DNA from: Actinomycetospora soli
GTDB taxonomy: Bacteria; Actinomycetota; Actinomycetes; Mycobacteriales; Pseudonocardiaceae
DNA: 64,000 nt
Assembly (NCBI RefSeq): GCF_021026295.1
Contig: NZ_JAJNDA010000005.1
Span: 1 to 64,000, forward strand
Direction: 5' to 3'
The notes under the pieces were generated by a model. That model searched no databases, was not told the origin of the DNA, and saw only the letters and a list, made by a program, of their open reading frames with translations. A program made the translations under genes and the position numbers. Within the stretch, counting starts at the first letter, position 1. Every line of letters begins with the position of its first letter. Positions 18,688-62,305 of the stretch are shown here, in pieces.

Positions 18688-20292
18688 CTACCGCAGGTCG
18701 CAGGCCACGACGAGCGGCGTCCGACGCGCGGCGAGGGTCGGCACGACGTCGTCGAGCACGTCGGCGAGCTCCGCCGCGGTGTGCACCCGGCGCGACGCGC
18801 ACCCCAGCGCGGCGGCGAGCCCGGGCACGTCCACCTCGCCGAACCCGGGCCACGGGGCCTTGCCGCCCGCGGCCGACGCGAGCCGGTCCATGATCGCGTA
18901 GCGCCCGTTGTCCAGGACGAGTACCAGCACGCCGACGCCGTAGTGCGCCGCGGTCCACAGCGCCTGGACCCCGTAGAGCGTCGAGCCGTCGCCGACGACG
19001 GCGACCACCGGACGGTCCGGCGCCCCCATCCGTACCCCGATCGACGCGGGCACGCCGAACCCGAGCCCGCCCTGTGCCGCGGAGAGGAACCCCAGCGGCG
19101 CCCGCGCGGGCACGAGGCGGTGCAGGTCGGGGCGCGACGAGGGCGTCTCCTCCACGACGACCGCGTCGGCCGGCAGCCGTGCCGTCAGGGCCGTGAACAC
19201 CGTCGGGGCGTCGAGGTGCGCACCACCCGTGACCGCGTGCGGGGAAGCCTCGGGCGCTCGTGTGGCACCGGGGTTCCCCGCACGCGGGGTGGAGCGCGGG
19301 GTGGCGAGCGGCGGGAGCGCGGCCGTCAGCGCCGTGACGGTCGCGGCGGGATCGGCGAGCACCGCCAGGTCGGCCCGGCTGTGGTGGACGTCCTCGGGGT
19401 CGTCGGAGACCAGCAGCACGGTCGTGCCCGGCTCCACCAGCTCGCCGGGGGAGTACTGGTACTGCCGGAACACGGGGGCGCCGACGACGAGGACGAGGTC
19501 GTGCCCGGCGAGGGTCGCGCGCAGGGCGGCGCGCTCGGGCGGCAGGTGCCCGGCGAAGGACGGGTGGTCCTGCGGGAAGCCCGCGCGCGCGGCGAACGCC
19601 TCCTGCCACACGGGCGTCCCGAGGTGCTCGGCGAGCCGGACCAGGGCCGTCCACGCGGCGGGCGAGTCCGCGTCCGCCCCGACGACGAGGGCCGGGGACG
19701 TCGCGGCGGCGACCCGGTCCGCCAGTTCCCGCACCGACCCGTCGTCGGGAAGGAGGCCGCGCCGGACGAGCCCGGGGGACGGGAGCGTCCGTGGGTCGGC
19801 CTCGGCGGCCCAGTCGTCGCTCGGGACGGTCACGACGGCGGGTCCGCGGGCGCTGACGGCCTCGTGGAAGGCGCGGTCGAGGGCGCCCGGGACGTCCTGC
19901 GGCCGGGCGGGCGCCGACCACCAGACCGGGTAGGAGCCGGCGAGCCCCTCGAGGTCGCCGGCGAGGAAGGGGCGCGCGGCGAGGTGGCGGCGGTCCTGCT
20001 GGCCGACGAGGACGACGAGCGGGGTGCGGTTGACCCGCGCGGTCGCCAGGGCGCCGACCGCGTTGCCCAGGCCCGCCGTCGTGTGGAGGACGACGAGGGC
20101 CGGCCGGTCGGTCGCGGTGGCGTAGCCGGTGGCCAGCCCGACGACCGAGCCCTCGTGCAGGGCGAGCACGAAGTCGAGGTCGTCGGGCAGGTCGGTGAGC
20201 AGCGTGATCTCGGTCGACCCGGGATTGGCGAAGATCCGGTCGAGGCCGCGCCGGCGCAGGACGTCGAACGCGGCCTCGCGGACGGTGGTCAG
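18688..20292 (-). CDS. Benzoylformate decarboxylase-like thiamine diphosphate enzyme
   Basis: The 534-residue protein matches the MdlC type of ThDP decarboxylases. The activating Glu lies in ALHEGSVVG near 47, the substrate His in VVLHTTAGLGNA near 70, and the C-terminal ThDP motif in VVGDGSTLYGVQ...LDNGRYAI near 420-450. It would convert benzoylformate to benzaldehyde and CO2 in mandelate-type catabolism. The frame has no ATG or GTG before TTVREAAFDVLRRRGL; the fitting start is CTG 20292 in a CTGA overlap with the transporter stop. A palindromic element codes a Pro/Ala-rich linker near residues 336-354. It lies in one operon with an aromatic-acid-type transporter. Confidence 0.87.
   Translation of the reverse strand: MTTVREAAFDVLRRRGLDRIFANPGSTEITLLTDLPDDLDFVLALHEGSVVGLATGYATATDRPALVVLHTTAGLGNAVGALATARVNRTPLVVLVGQQDRRHLAARPFLAGDLEGLAGSYPVWWSAPARPQDVPGALDRAFHEAVSARGPAVVTVPSDDWAAEADPRTLPSPGLVRRGLLPDDGSVRELADRVAAATSPALVVGADADSPAAWTALVRLAEHLGTPVWQEAFAARAGFPQDHPSFAGHLPPERAALRATLAGHDLVLVVGAPVFRQYQYSPGELVEPGTTVLLVSDDPEDVHHSRADLAVLADPAATVTALTAALPPLATPRSTPRAGNPGATRAPEASPHAVTGGAHLDAPTVFTALTARLPADAVVVEETPSSRPDLHRLVPARAPLGFLSAAQGGLGFGVPASIGVRMGAPDRPVVAVVGDGSTLYGVQALWTAAHYGVGVLVLVLDNGRYAIMDRLASAAGGKAPWPGFGEVDVPGLAAALGCASRRVHTAAELADVLDDVVPTLAARRTPLVVACDLR
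19233..19287. repeat. 55-bp palindromic element, copy 1, inside the decarboxylase gene
   Basis: CCGCGTGCGGGGAA (19233-19246) and TTCCCCGCACGCGG (19274-19287) are perfect 14-base inverted repeats around a 27-base centre with TCGGGCGCTC. A second copy of the same length lies between genes at 44028-44082; the two agree at 43 of 55 positions. Two differences in the stem are compensatory pairs (T-A to C-G, C-G to A-T). Here it codes a linker between the central and C-terminal ThDP domains, which would tolerate an insertion. Confidence 0.7.
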
Positions 20293-21521
20293 GACGCCGT
20301 CCGATCGCGCTCGACGGCGGTGCCGGCGAGGTCCGACGCGGGCTCGGTGCGCCGCACGAACACCACGGCGACCGCCCCGAGGGCGGCGACCAGGGCGAAG
20401 AAGTAGAAGCCCCACGGGTAGGCGACGCCCCCGGCGACCAGGGCGCCGGTGAACGCCGGCCCGGAGATCGCGCCGAGGCGGCCGACGCCGCTCGCCGAGC
20501 CGAGGGCGGTCCCGCGGGCGGCGGCCGGGTAGATGCGCCCGACCCAGCTGTAGACCAGCACCTGCGAGGAGAACACGAACACGCCGGCGAGCAGGATCGC
20601 GACGTAGACCGCGGCGCCGGGCAGCCGGATCGAGAGCAGGGCGAGGAAGACCGCGGCCACGGCGAACCAGGTGATGGTGGCGGGGCGGACGCCGATGCGG
20701 TCGGCGACCCGGCCGCCGACGAGCAGGCCGATCACCGCGCCGACGTTCAGCGCGAGCAGCTGGAACAGGGCCTGGGTGAGCTCGTAGCCCGCGAGCCGCA
20801 TGATCTCGGGCAGCCAGGTGTTGAGGCCGTAGACGAGCAGCAGGCCCATGAACGACGCGACCCAGAAGGCGACGGTCGCGACGCCGTAGCCGCTGCGGAA
20901 GAGGTCGCCGACCGGGTTCTTCCGGCCCGCCGTCGCCTCCCGTGCGACCGGCGCGGCGTCGGCGGGGAGCCGGCGCGCCATCAGCGGCACGAGCACGAGC
21001 GCGGGCACGGCGCCGACGACGAACATGAACTGCCAGCCCAGGCTTGACACGAGCAGGGCGCCGAGCAGCGACGCGGCGACGGCGCCCGCGTGGTAGCCGG
21101 TCATGAGGATCGTGGTGGCGGTGTTGCCGCGGCGCGGCGGGGCGTGCTCGGCGGTCATCGCGAGGGCGACGGGCAGGACGCCGCCGAGGGGGATGCCGGC
21201 GAGGAAGCGCAGGGCGCCGAGGACACCGGCGTTCGGGGCGAGCGCGCAGGCGGCACCGAGCAGGGAGAACGCGACGACGCAGGCGATCATCGTGCGGCGC
21301 CGGCCCCACACGTCGGCCACGGGCCCGACGGCCAGGGCGCCGACCATGACGCCGAGGAGGCCGACCGTGGCCACCGTGGTGGCGCTGCCGGGGCTCAGGG
21401 CGAAGACCGGGTCACGGCGCAGCACCGGGATGACGACGCCGAGGACGACGAGGTCGTAGCCCTCCAGGGCCACGGCCGACCACGCGAGCCACCGCACCGC
21501 GCTCGAGGACGGGTTCGTCAT
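20289..21521 (-). CDS. MFS transporter, aromatic acid:proton symporter type
   Basis: The 410-residue protein has about twelve membrane helices and the AAHS-like start AWSAVALEGYDLVVLGVVIPVL, in which the Asp of the first helix is typical of benzoate and 4-hydroxybenzoate carriers. The loop 2-3 motif is GPVADVWGRRRTM. ATG 21521 is preceded by AGGAAGG. It likely imports an aromatic acid such as mandelate or benzoylformate, inferred from the decarboxylase gene that overlaps its stop by CTGA. The IclR gene lies upstream on the same strand at 168 bases distance. Confidence 0.85.
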   Translation of the reverse strand: MTNPSSSAVRWLAWSAVALEGYDLVVLGVVIPVLRRDPVFALSPGSATTVATVGLLGVMVGALAVGPVADVWGRRRTMIACVVAFSLLGAACALAPNAGVLGALRFLAGIPLGGVLPVALAMTAEHAPPRRGNTATTILMTGYHAGAVAASLLGALLVSSLGWQFMFVVGAVPALVLVPLMARRLPADAAPVAREATAGRKNPVGDLFRSGYGVATVAFWVASFMGLLLVYGLNTWLPEIMRLAGYELTQALFQLLALNVGAVIGLLVGGRVADRIGVRPATITWFAVAAVFLALLSIRLPGAAVYVAILLAGVFVFSSQVLVYSWVGRIYPAAARGTALGSASGVGRLGAISGPAFTGALVAGGVAYPWGFYFFALVAALGAVAVVFVRRTEPASDLAGTAVERDRTAS

Positions 21522-43328: not shown

Positions 43329-43967
43329 TCAGGCCACGGCCTTCGACCGCTCGACGGCGAGCCGGTCCACGAGGTCGTTCATCTCGTCGCCGGAGTGCCC
43401 CTTGACCCAGCGGAAGGAGATGTCGCCGCGCTCGTTGACCAGCGTGATCAGCGGTTCCCACAGGTCGCGGCTGACGACCGGCTTCTTCGCGCTCGTCGTC
43501 CAGCCACGCGCGATCCAGCCCTTCCACCAGCCGTCGCGGAAGCAGTTCACGACGTAGGTCGAGTCGCTGACCACCACCAACGGGCCCTCGAGCGAGCGCA
43601 CCGCCTCGAGCGCGGCGCGGATCTCCATGCGCTGGTTCGTGGTGCCGGCCTCGCCGCCGCTGTCCTGCCGGCCGTCCCGCGTCGCCCACGCCCAGCCACC
43701 GGGGCCGGGGTTGCCCGAGCACGCGCCGTCGGTCCAGACCTCCAGCGCCCCCTCGGCCGCGGGCATGTCCGCGCGCGCCGGCCTCGTCGCCTTCGTCGCG
43801 GCCTTCTTCGCGGGTGCCGTGCCCGGCGCCTTCGCCGGGGCGTCCCCGGCCGTGTCCGCGCACGCCACGTGCGCCCACCGCGGGCCGGCCTTCGCGATCT
43901 GCTCGCCGGGGGAGACGGGGGCGGCGCACACCCCGCAGGTGGTCGCGTACTTGGCGGTCATCGGCAC
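43329..43967 (-). CDS. rnhA: Ribonuclease HI with N-terminal zinc-ribbon-like domain
   Basis: The 212-residue protein joins a short CxxC...HxxC module (CGVCAAPVSPGEQIAKAG, then WAHVAC; residues 10-36) to an RNase HI domain by an Ala/Lys/Thr-rich linker (40-68). The catalytic set is complete: Asp in VWTDGACSGNPGPGGW near 75, Glu in NQRMEIRAALE, Asp in VVVSDSTYVVN and His/Asp in VKGHSGDEMNDLVDRLA. It cuts RNA in RNA-DNA hybrids. GTG 43967 is preceded by TACCCT at six bases on the minus strand, so the message is probably leaderless; ATG 43961 is the alternative. The front domain may add nucleic-acid binding. Confidence 0.9.
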   Translation of the reverse strand: MPMTAKYATTCGVCAAPVSPGEQIAKAGPRWAHVACADTAGDAPAKAPGTAPAKKAATKATRPARADMPAAEGALEVWTDGACSGNPGPGGWAWATRDGRQDSGGEAGTTNQRMEIRAALEAVRSLEGPLVVVSDSTYVVNCFRDGWWKGWIARGWTTSAKKPVVSRDLWEPLITLVNERGDISFRWVKGHSGDEMNDLVDRLAVERSKAVA

Positions 43968-44027
43968 GCGGCCAGGGTAGGTCGCGCCGCTCCCGCGCCC
44001 GTCACCCGCCGCGTGTCCGCCACCTCG

Positions 44028-44082
44028 CCGCGCGAGGGGAGGATTCGGGCGCTCTTCTGGCCCGAGGGTTCCCCTCGCGCGG
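44028..44082. repeat. 55-bp palindromic element, copy 2 (intergenic)
   Basis: CCGCGCGAGGGGA (44028-44040) and TCCCCTCGCGCGG (44070-44082) are perfect inverted repeats around a centre with TCGGGCGCTC and CCCGA, which extends the stem. It has exactly the length of the copy inside the decarboxylase gene (19233-19287), with 43 of 55 identical bases. Here it lies between rnhA and the sulfur monooxygenase gene, 20 bases after the stop of the latter, and could also act as its terminator. Confidence 0.7.
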
Positions 44083-44101
44083 GACCGGGGGAGGAGTGGC
44101 G

Positions 44102-45313
44102 TCAGCGCTTGCCCGCACTCCAGGCGTAGGGCAGCTCGGAGCCGTTGAGCACGTGGTCGCCGACCGTGCGGAGCTTGTGGATCAGCGGGTTGTGCACCGA
44201 GATGGTGCGGGCGTTGCGCCAGTGCCGGTCGAGGCGCAGGGCCTCCGAGGTGATCGACGCGCCGCCGACCTCGAACAGCTGGGTCGTCGCGTCGAGAACC
44301 GTCGGGATGACGGCGGCCTGGGCGCGGGCGACGTCGAACTCGACGCGGTCGAGCAGGTCGGCGTCCTCGCTGTCCCCGGCGAGGATCACGTCGAGCTGGT
44401 CGGCGATGTCGAGCACGATCGTCCGGGCCGCGTAGGCGGCCGAGGACAGCCGGCCGATCACCTGCTGCACCAGCGGGTCGTCCTTGGGCAGGTCGGCGGC
44501 GGCGTGGGTGTAGGAGCGGGTGCGCTCGCGGACCCAGGCGGACACGTCGTCGGTCGCGCGCTGCGCGATGCCCGCGAGCACGGCGAGCTGCACGAGCTGC
44601 AGGTAGGAGGTGCCGTACGTGCGCCCCGGCGTCCCGTAGCCCGGCCCGAGCACCCGGTCGCCGGGCACGAGGACGTCGCTGAACTCGGTGGTGCCGCTCG
44701 CGGTCAGGCGCTGGCCGAAGCCGTCCCAGTCGTCGTGCTGGGTGATGCCCTCGGCGTCGGCGTCCACGAGGACCGCGACGCGCTCGCCGGCCTGGTCGGC
44801 CGCGACGATGATGTGGTCGGCGTAGAGGCTGCCGGTGCTGTAGTACTTCGTGCCGTTCAGGCGCAGGGCGCCGTCGGTGGAGCCGTCGGGGGTCAGGGTC
44901 GTCTGGTAGCGGTCGATCGCGCCGACGCCCGGCTCGGAGATCGCGTTGCCCACGAGCGTGCCGTCGGCGGCCGCGCGCAGCCAGCGCTCCCGCTCGGGCC
45001 CCGGCTCGGCGAGCAGCTGCTCCTCGACGAACCACCAGTGCACGCGCAGGGCCTGCGGCAGGTTCGACTCCGCCGCCGCCAGGGCGATGAGCTGCCGGAA
45101 CAGCTGGCGCACGCTCGCGCCGTACCCGCCGAACTCGACGGGCACCCGCAGCGCGCCGAAGCGCACCTCCTTGAGCGCGCGGACCTCGTCGAAGGCCAGC
45201 GCACGGTCGTGCTCGCGCTGCAGCGCGCCCTCCGCGATGCGCGCGAAGACGGGAGCGAAGAGCTCGTCGAGCCTCGCGTCGGGGGTGGTCTCGGTGGGCA
45301 CGGTGGCGGTCAT
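44102..45313 (-). CDS. DszC/SfnC-like flavin monooxygenase of the acyl-CoA dehydrogenase fold
   Basis: The 403-residue protein has an acyl-CoA dehydrogenase fold but lacks a clear catalytic Glu. It carries EFGGYGASVRQLFRQLIALA near 61, NAISEPGVGAIDRY near 125 and NPLIHKLRTVGDHVLNG near 380, as in DszC/SfnC and dibenzothiophene-desulfurisation-like monooxygenases. Such FMNH2-dependent enzymes oxidise organosulfur compounds to release sulfur. ATG 45313 follows GAGAGGAA. The cysteine-type leader peptide 110 bases upstream strongly supports a role in sulfur acquisition. The true sulfur substrate is unknown. Confidence 0.85.
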   Translation of the reverse strand: MTATVPTETTPDARLDELFAPVFARIAEGALQREHDRALAFDEVRALKEVRFGALRVPVEFGGYGASVRQLFRQLIALAAAESNLPQALRVHWWFVEEQLLAEPGPERERWLRAAADGTLVGNAISEPGVGAIDRYQTTLTPDGSTDGALRLNGTKYYSTGSLYADHIIVAADQAGERVAVLVDADAEGITQHDDWDGFGQRLTASGTTEFSDVLVPGDRVLGPGYGTPGRTYGTSYLQLVQLAVLAGIAQRATDDVSAWVRERTRSYTHAAADLPKDDPLVQQVIGRLSSAAYAARTIVLDIADQLDVILAGDSEDADLLDRVEFDVARAQAAVIPTVLDATTQLFEVGGASITSEALRLDRHWRNARTISVHNPLIHKLRTVGDHVLNGSELPYAWSAGKR

Positions 45314-62071: not shown

Positions 62072-62256
62072 GATCCGGACCTGCGGAGCGATGTGGTCGC
62101 TGGGCGAGCACTTCGCGCGGCGCGTTGGGATCTTGGGGGACGGGTCGGGACGTCGACCCGCCGTCGGGATGGGCGAGGTGCTGGTGGCGCAAGATCCGGA
62201 CCTGCGGAGCGAAGTGCTCGCTGAGCGAGCACTTCGCTCCGCGCGTCGGGATCTTG
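62072..62256. repeat. Two tandem copies of a 64-bp palindromic element
   Basis: Copy A (62072-62135) and copy B (62193-62256) agree at 58 of 64 bases and are 57 bases apart. Copy B, with two more flanking bases, is a palindrome: the 32-base left arm 62191-62222 matches the right arm 62224-62255 with three mismatches around one central base. Copy A is the decayed one. They fill the space between the divergent isochorismatase and acyl-CoA dehydrogenase genes. This resembles REP/BIME-type elements. No other copy is present in the window. Confidence 0.75.
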
Positions 62257-62305
62257 CTCGACGTGGAGGTGGCGCTCACGGGCCGGAGGCGGTAGATCAC
62301 CGGGC

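Follow-up and report, generated by a model that had tools for sequence, protein, structure and literature searches.

A short palindromic element dispersed in Actinomycetospora genomes and carried in frame between the domains of unrelated proteins

In the accessible parts of three papers (PMC2229807, PMC10969869, PMC3733652), palindromic repeats that lie in frame within coding sequence are reported chiefly from Rickettsia and in isolated cases from other organisms. As set out there, Rickettsia palindromic elements (RPE) are palindromic, form several families per genome, occur both between genes and in frame inside them, and encode a conserved peptide in unrelated conserved genes (PMC2229807, PMC10969869); their length is given as 105-146 bp (PMC2229807), and RPE-4 and RPE-6 are classed as short CGTC repeats (PMC3733652). 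REP and the GTAG and CGTC superfamilies are short multi-copy palindromes near gene ends, some of them intragenic and some in inverted pairs; REP are 20-40 bp long, and the CGTC group is without a dedicated transposase (accessible part of PMC3733652). MITEs (NEMIS, ERIC, RUP) are small, non-autonomous, dispersed and sometimes fused in frame (accessible parts of PMC2229807 and PMC10969869). The corresponding parts of PMC10969869 and PMC3733652 make no mention of actinobacteria for such palindromes. For Actinomycetospora and its family, the open-access literature searched yielded no account of elements of this kind. Judging from a reference title, similar palindromes reportedly occur in Wolbachia.

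The window analysed here is a stretch of 64,000 nucleotides from Actinomycetospora soli. An initial annotation had described two 55-bp palindromes in it, copy 1 at 19233..19287 (+) and copy 2 at 44028..44082 (+), and direct recomputation returned the same positions and length, the same identity (43/55), the shared centre TCGGGCGCTC and both compensated stem pairs, 6/50 (T-A to C-G) and 8/48 (C-G to A-T). With copy 2 as query on either strand of the window, the top four scores, given without positions, were 55 for copy 2 itself, 43 as for copy 1, then 38 and 34, of which the 38 may be copy 2's own opposite strand. The distance from 43/55 to the next scores indicates that the likeness of the two copies is not due to chance. 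Neither copy matched Rfam 15 at the gathering score, where only 5S, the end of 23S and one tRNA were found in the window, which ruled out a known RNA family for the element. A separate long quasi-palindrome, with a perfect inverted repeat around its centre, was seen at 62189-62257 and scored best of 14 hairpins in its own 400-kb block.

Copy 1 (covariance model (CM) match 19232-19291) lies in frame inside a gene of 535 residues at 18688..20295 (-), the GTG start of which was picked by homology to orthologs. Pfam places TPP_enzyme_N at residues 4-106, the M domain at 188-323 and the C domain at 391-530, and the element encodes residues 338-353; its position in a domain-boundary linker, after the M domain and before the C match, was as annotated. 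The name benzoylformate decarboxylase is unproven, as Pfam supports the superfamily only, and we refer to the gene as a TPP-enzyme or decarboxylase gene. Read antisense and in frame, copy 1 encodes RAGNPGATRAPEASPH, and the family consensus peptide is REGNPRATRALESSPH. Copy 2 (CM match 44027-44086) is intergenic, with minus-strand genes on both sides that were called with our own simple gene caller. One of them, 44102..45313 (-), presumably encodes an acyl-CoA dehydrogenase and has its 3' end 22 bp from the element; the other, 43329..43961 (-), lies downstream, has its predicted start 69 bp from the element and is taken by us to encode an RNase H domain protein.

Both copies are members of a dispersed family, here called family A, with at least 43 copies in the source genome (G000, one of 18 genus genomes analysed) when blastn with copy 2 and pattern searches were united. 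A 30-base pattern with up to 3 mismatches had 39 matches, compared to 0 for the reversed pattern, and 4 more copies came from further blastn and pattern searches. The copies examined were 39: C11:41189, C34:21025 and C44:214478, which had no locus, were left out, L041 was removed as a duplicate of L027, and a degenerate copy in a P-type ATPase gene (C5:129911) was met only in the ortholog comparison and stands outside the 39. Aligned, the 39 copies give the consensus CGTGAGGGGAGGATTCGAGCGCTCTnGTGGCACGAGGGTTCCCCTCACG and a unit length of 49-51 bp. An asymmetric inner loop with GGAT on one arm was present in 25/39, a near-full palindrome (AACCC or near) in 8/39 and another form in 6/39.

Further copies, for which the initial annotation had proposed a search genome-wide and in relatives, were numerous in G000 and were also found in related species. 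A CM built from the 39 aligned copies (E up to 0.01, 150 candidates scored per genome) had 16 to 105 matches in 8 of the 18 Actinomycetospora genomes: 105 in G010, 80 in G003, 67 in G015, 56 in G000, 48 in G001, 45 in G016, 28 in G014 and 16 in G007, counts that are upper bounds since a palindrome may match on both strands. The remaining genomes had 6 (G002), 5 (G017), 1 (three genomes) or 0 (five genomes) matches, and seven loci read from genomes with 6 or fewer (L151-L155, L164, L165) were other palindromes. The exact family A pattern was found across genome contigs in 18 stretches, all from Actinomycetospora. Allowing up to 3 mismatches, the pattern matched 7 of 61 genomes (the source genome plus relatives), namely 6 in the genus and G060, from another family of the same order and the only match outside the genus in this search; the reversed pattern matched none of the 61.

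In the family-wide CM scan (390 genomes, stricter filters, 14 candidates scored per genome), matches outside the genus were weaker (best 55.8 bits) and came from 10 genomes of 3 genera. Where read, they had a similar palindrome layout in a different spelling, and since the CM picked them by similarity, they do not establish a common origin with family A. Palindromes of 49-51 bp with a centre such as TCTGA were seen in three other genera of the family (L173-L185); those read were alike within a genus and different between genera. A phage-borne element was considered, and 0 exact matches in viral_contigs to one family A pattern with 27 specified bases speak against it. The G060 copy (L069, G060:C77, 487-2142) lies, like copy 1, inside a TPP-enzyme gene, and in a nine-gene tree this gene grouped with that of G016 (support 1.000, identity 0.896); either gene transfer or a misassigned or contaminated assembly would account for it.

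Gene calls for placement were made with a simple codon-usage caller written for this analysis. The 39 copies fell into 12 convergent, 15 tandem and 2 divergent spacers and 10 reading frames; one of the latter (L025, 5 residues from a predicted start) was dropped as a start-call artefact, leaving 9. The coding fraction was 0.89 to 0.92 in four 400-kb blocks, and the element avoids genes strongly (p ~2e-20 against a coding fraction of 0.88). Convergent spacers were over-represented (12/29 intergenic copies against 0.16 expected by number or length, p ~0.001), and divergent spacers (2/29) were under-represented by length (p 0.0014) and not clearly so by number (p 0.15). The stop codon of a neighbouring gene lay inside the element in 11/39 copies. 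Copies are mostly near gene 3' ends. No T-run followed the hairpin within the next 12 nt in the 39 copies (mean T 0.79, maximum 3, on the plus strand; mean 1.13, maximum 4, on the minus strand). Two inverted pairs were present in G000 (C33:229335/229413 and C22:263834/263900). Intergenic hairpins may stabilise or end transcripts; such a role is not needed to explain the spread.

In-frame insertion was found in unrelated protein genes and not only in the decarboxylase. The nine in-frame copies of G000 comprise two at C-termini (L009, which had no Pfam match, and L028) and seven in gene interiors. The interior hosts are the TPP enzyme of the window, an HldE-like PfkB + cytidylyltransferase protein, a CydDC-like double ABC protein, a fused NuoE-NuoF-like protein, an ABC exporter, a Ser/Thr kinase and a biotin carboxylase fusion; the names HldE, CydDC and NuoE-F are putative, being read from domain order, and AnmK and P-type ATPase, used below, are what we take two further hosts to be from their sequence. 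The seven interior elements lie between Pfam domains or, in the kinase, behind the kinase domain. For example, the element occupies residues 306-322 between PfkB (6-290) and CTP_transf (353-447), 149-165 between 2Fe-2S_thioredx (29-139) and 51K (251-421), 325-341 between ABC_membrane (21-289) and ABC_tran (353-496), and 432-448 between Biotin_carb_C (320-419) and Biotin_lipoyl (457-520).

Across species, 30 in-frame calls, orthologs among them, came from 103 distinct copies whose context was available. The consensus has two antisense frames free of stops, and every host that reads the element antisense (11/11, several species) uses the same one, which encodes REGNPRATRALESSPH: the TPP enzyme, L009, HldE, the kinase, CydDC, NuoE-F, the ABC exporter, AnmK (G016), the P-type ATPase (G015), L080 (G001) and L268 (G007). 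Here L163 was counted as an ortholog of the kinase L016 by assumption, and L084 and L086, near-full palindromes that the script labelled sense, have the same peptide and were counted with their ortholog L001. Sense reading was found in one frame for the biotin carboxylase fusion and L068, and in another for the C-termini of L028, its orthologs and L150. The L150 locus (G016:C14) contains two family A elements about 680 bp apart (1501-1560 and 2180-2239), one of which is within an AnmK-like gene and the other at a reading frame's 3' end.

The prospect that orthologs would lack the linker was not realised for the decarboxylase. A close ortholog (>=78% DNA identity) was present in 8 genus genomes, and each of these had the element at the same site and in the same frame; homologs in the remaining 10 were more distant (64-74%) and lay outside the linker comparison. 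The linker on either side of the element varied in length among the 8 genomes. Pairwise differences in this gene were 0.18 in the stems, 0.35 in the loop and 0.40 at four-fold sites elsewhere, and 0.21 at third positions in the element stems. Third-position GC was 0.59 to 0.76 in the element compared to 0.96 to 0.99 elsewhere in this gene. Codons otherwise avoided by the genome are thus retained in the element, a pattern that speaks for constraint on the nucleotides, arm-to-arm correction or re-copying and not for peptide selection. Multi-base arm changes at one site were seen in copy 2 (G015 compared to G000 and G003) and in the TPP enzyme (G010, G014 and G016 compared to the other five), and they may reflect one arm having been corrected from the other. 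An AlphaFold2 model of the decarboxylase had low confidence (mean pLDDT 64.6), with pLDDT <50 at residues 331-358, which enclose the element; because residues 384-416 and 464-486 were also <50, the model only weakly suggests that the element peptide is a flexible linker.

Covarying stems were found in part: some pairs change on both sides, and the covariation is modest. Among 110 distinct copies, 8/21 pairs had both-side changes and 1/500 shuffles reached the score, with sequence relatedness not removed. The clearest pair, columns 7/62, was T-A in 54 copies, C-G in 24, T-G in 24 and unpaired in 8, and the two outermost pairs of the given structure were unpaired in 59/110 and 61/110 copies. In the decarboxylase, 4/18 pairs changed on both sides among 9 sequences (the 8 and G060), and 30/500 shuffles reached 4 pairs and 5/500 the score, again with relatedness not removed. 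The RNAalifold covariation term for the 39 copies was only -0.61. Folded as RNA, copies 1 and 2 were well below their shuffled sequences (z -5.8 and -5.2), whereas the common form (L004) did not improve on shuffling on one strand (z -0.86) and did so only to some degree on the other (z -2.50).

Element-free orthologs exist for several other in-frame hosts. AnmK was filled in G003 and G016 and element-free in G000, G001, G007 and G015 (4/6 free); as G016 is distant from G003 and the four empty genomes are relatives of G003, this pattern requires that the element was lost repeatedly or was inserted twice at one place. NuoE-F was filled in G000, G001, G003 and G015 and element-free in G007, G010 and G014 (3/7 free). 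The P-type ATPase was filled in G015, G003 (with a second, partial copy), G001 and G000 (degenerate) and element-free in G007 (1/5). The biotin carboxylase fusion was filled in 4/4 orthologs examined.

Alignment of orthologous sites also exposed a second palindrome of the same length, family B (consensus GAGCGAAGGGCCCCTTCGGTCGAnTAGATCGACCGnnGGGGCCCTTCGCTC, from an alignment of 23 copies), with the in-gene peptide SEGPLRSTRSTEGALR. A family B CM had 15 to 150 matches per genome in 18/18 genus genomes, with 150 candidates scored per genome and both strands counted. Among 394 genomes of the class, evenly drawn and under stricter filters, it had strong matches in the source genome and weak ones in 22 others (at most 44 bits). 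Strong matches of A and B were found almost exclusively in Actinomycetospora. Five of 71 family B copies with context were in genes, all from loci fetched for family A, so no rate can be derived. The A and B consensus sequences agree at 29/49 positions, a value reached by 11/5000 shuffled-arm palindromes, and on this resemblance a common origin is likely. A third hairpin type of about 40 bp, GGTGAGC...GCTATGGC...GCTCAC, was seen twice in 400 kb (G000:C55:85554-85593 and 159597-159636), and a hairpin similar to it lies behind the ortholog of a copy 2 neighbour gene in G010.

The two families were found in place of each other. In CydDC, family A is present in G000, G003 and G015 and family B at the same register in G001 and G007, an exchange that keeps length and reading frame; nothing recognisable was at the site in G010 and G016. 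In HldE, A is present in G000, G003 and G015, B twice in G001 and G007, and A with two B in G010; G002, G013 and G017 have a short linker. A syntenic block of about 400 kb was compared in G000, G003, G001 and G007. The TPP-enzyme site and S5 were filled in 4/4. The copy 2 site was filled in G000, G003 and also G015 and empty in G001 and G007. S3 was filled in three genomes, weakly in G001 (48.6 bits), with an apparent deletion remnant in G007, where only the outer ends of the palindrome are kept, as expected of a deletion inside a hairpin. S4 had A in G000, B in G001 and neither in G003 and G007; S7 had a pair of A in G001 and B in the other three. S6 was filled in G000 and empty in G003, and the parts of G001 and G007 retrieved here had no match; S8 was filled in G007 only (1/4), and one further G007 copy had no syntenic match.

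Alignments of filled and empty sites had no visible target-site duplication or clean element boundary, and their flanks were diverged. Most sites of the block are common to species about 14% diverged in DNA, and no recent jump was caught. Same-site copies were more alike across species (identity 0.881, 40 pairs) than different-site copies within (0.835, 92 pairs) or across species (0.824, 333 pairs), a difference reached by 0/2000 label shuffles over 9 chosen sites. This indicates that sites are inherited, and it rules out concerted evolution that erases site identity. Plain descent does not account for the A/B exchanges. At fixed positions inside genes (CydDC, HldE) and between genes (S4, S7), one palindrome may have been exchanged for another in place, the hairpin serving as target or template by way of a host or hidden enzyme and without a dedicated transposase, which would rewrite protein linkers in situ; we hold this tentatively, as a possibility that is somewhat doubtful.

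Taken together, the data make it probable, in our judgement, that family A is a non-autonomous dispersed palindromic element that lies mostly near gene 3' ends and survives in genes as an in-frame peptide at a domain boundary or chain end, and that family B is probably its sister. This reading draws on the copy number, the two kinds of location, the one preferred frame, the filled and element-free sites, the presence of A or B at one site and the stem conservation in one gene. Weighing against it are the lack of a visible target-site duplication, clean boundary or Y1 transposase, the sharing of most block sites between diverged species, the AnmK pattern, the placement near 3' ends, the weak RNA folding of the common form (L004) and the simplicity of the gene caller. 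New copies would arise when the hairpin is copied by a putative recombinase or transposase acting in trans. Selection would remove most insertions in genes; those that extend the protein in frame, by REGNPRATRALESSPH in family A and SEGPLRSTRSTEGALR in family B, at the border of a domain or at a chain terminus, where the element does little harm, could survive. The palindrome would be kept by constraint or correction, and arm-to-arm correction may help to maintain it. PF01797, the Y1 transposase profile and the sole transposase family searched, was found in 0/18 genus genomes and in 5/14 control genomes, which ruled out REP moved by RAYT.

The placement data bear on the alternative that the element is a transcription-end or mRNA-stabilising hairpin, spread by its usefulness, with the in-gene copies as relics of gene ends or fusions. 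The excess in convergent spacers, the scarcity in divergent ones (by length) and the stop codons inside the element in 11/39 copies fit a functional terminator, and S4 and S7 carry A in one species and B in another as if any hairpin sufficed. However, the GC-rich hairpin is followed by no T-run in either direction in the 39 copies, which excludes a Rho-independent terminator as the sole explanation, and the conserved loop and asymmetric inner loop (GGAT arm in 25/39) are needless for a plain terminator. Moreover, seven G000 copies sit midway in long genes with known domains, and the element-free NuoE-F and AnmK orthologs have no gene end at the site. We therefore regard this alternative as unlikely.

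If the element were bound by a chromosome-organising or regulatory protein, with A and B tracking changed specificity, the nucleotide conservation of the stem inside a coding gene and the sequence types that differ by lineage would agree with this. Such a role is nevertheless very improbable, given that A and B coexist in the same genomes, that site occupancy differs between species, that CM matches range from 16 to 105 among family A carriers and that the 53 pattern positions in the one-contig G003 have no evident clustering by eye. Chance similarity or convergence of GC-rich hairpins has in its favour a very GC-rich genome in which hairpins are common, but it can be practically dismissed: the reversed-pattern controls refute it (39 matches against 0 in G000, and 0 control matches in all 61 genomes), and fixed-length, closely similar units stand at orthologous sites of several species. 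A dispersed element that persists in genes as a linker peptide is therefore the explanation we prefer. Several species, sites with and without the element, two interchangeable families and named strains within one high-GC genus put three questions within reach of a test: which activity mobilises these elements, how proteins tolerate an insert of 16 residues, and whether linkers between domains regularly originate from non-coding repeats.

Compared to the described systems, family A shares with MITEs its small size, non-autonomy, dispersal and in-frame fusions, and differs in being about 50 bp rather than about 100-200 bp, in that the whole element is one palindrome, and in having no visible target-site duplication (with flanks diverged) or parent transposon. 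Like REP, it lies near gene ends, is sometimes intragenic and sometimes in inverted pairs, and like the CGTC group it appears to lack a dedicated transposase; unlike REP (20-40 bp), its unit is 49-51 bp, no Y1 transposase was found in any of the 18 genus genomes, and the ends of its 60-column consensus, by eye, have no GTAG or CGTC tag, the palindrome ending in CGTG and CACG. The likeness to RPE that the initial annotation had drawn was supported by in-frame copies in unrelated genes and by element-free orthologs. Family A is in frame in unrelated protein genes, encodes a conserved peptide in one preferred antisense frame (11/11), with a few sense hosts in other frames, and has orthologs without the insert (AnmK, NuoE-F, P-type ATPase, S8), while 8/8 close orthologs of the window gene are filled. 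It differs from RPE in length (49-51 bp compared to 105-146 bp), in its actinobacterial host genus and in the exchange of families at the same residue, which is absent from the accessible parts of the RPE accounts (PMC2229807, PMC10969869, PMC3733652). By analogy, and with no claim of descent from them, family A appears to work like the Rickettsia palindromic elements.
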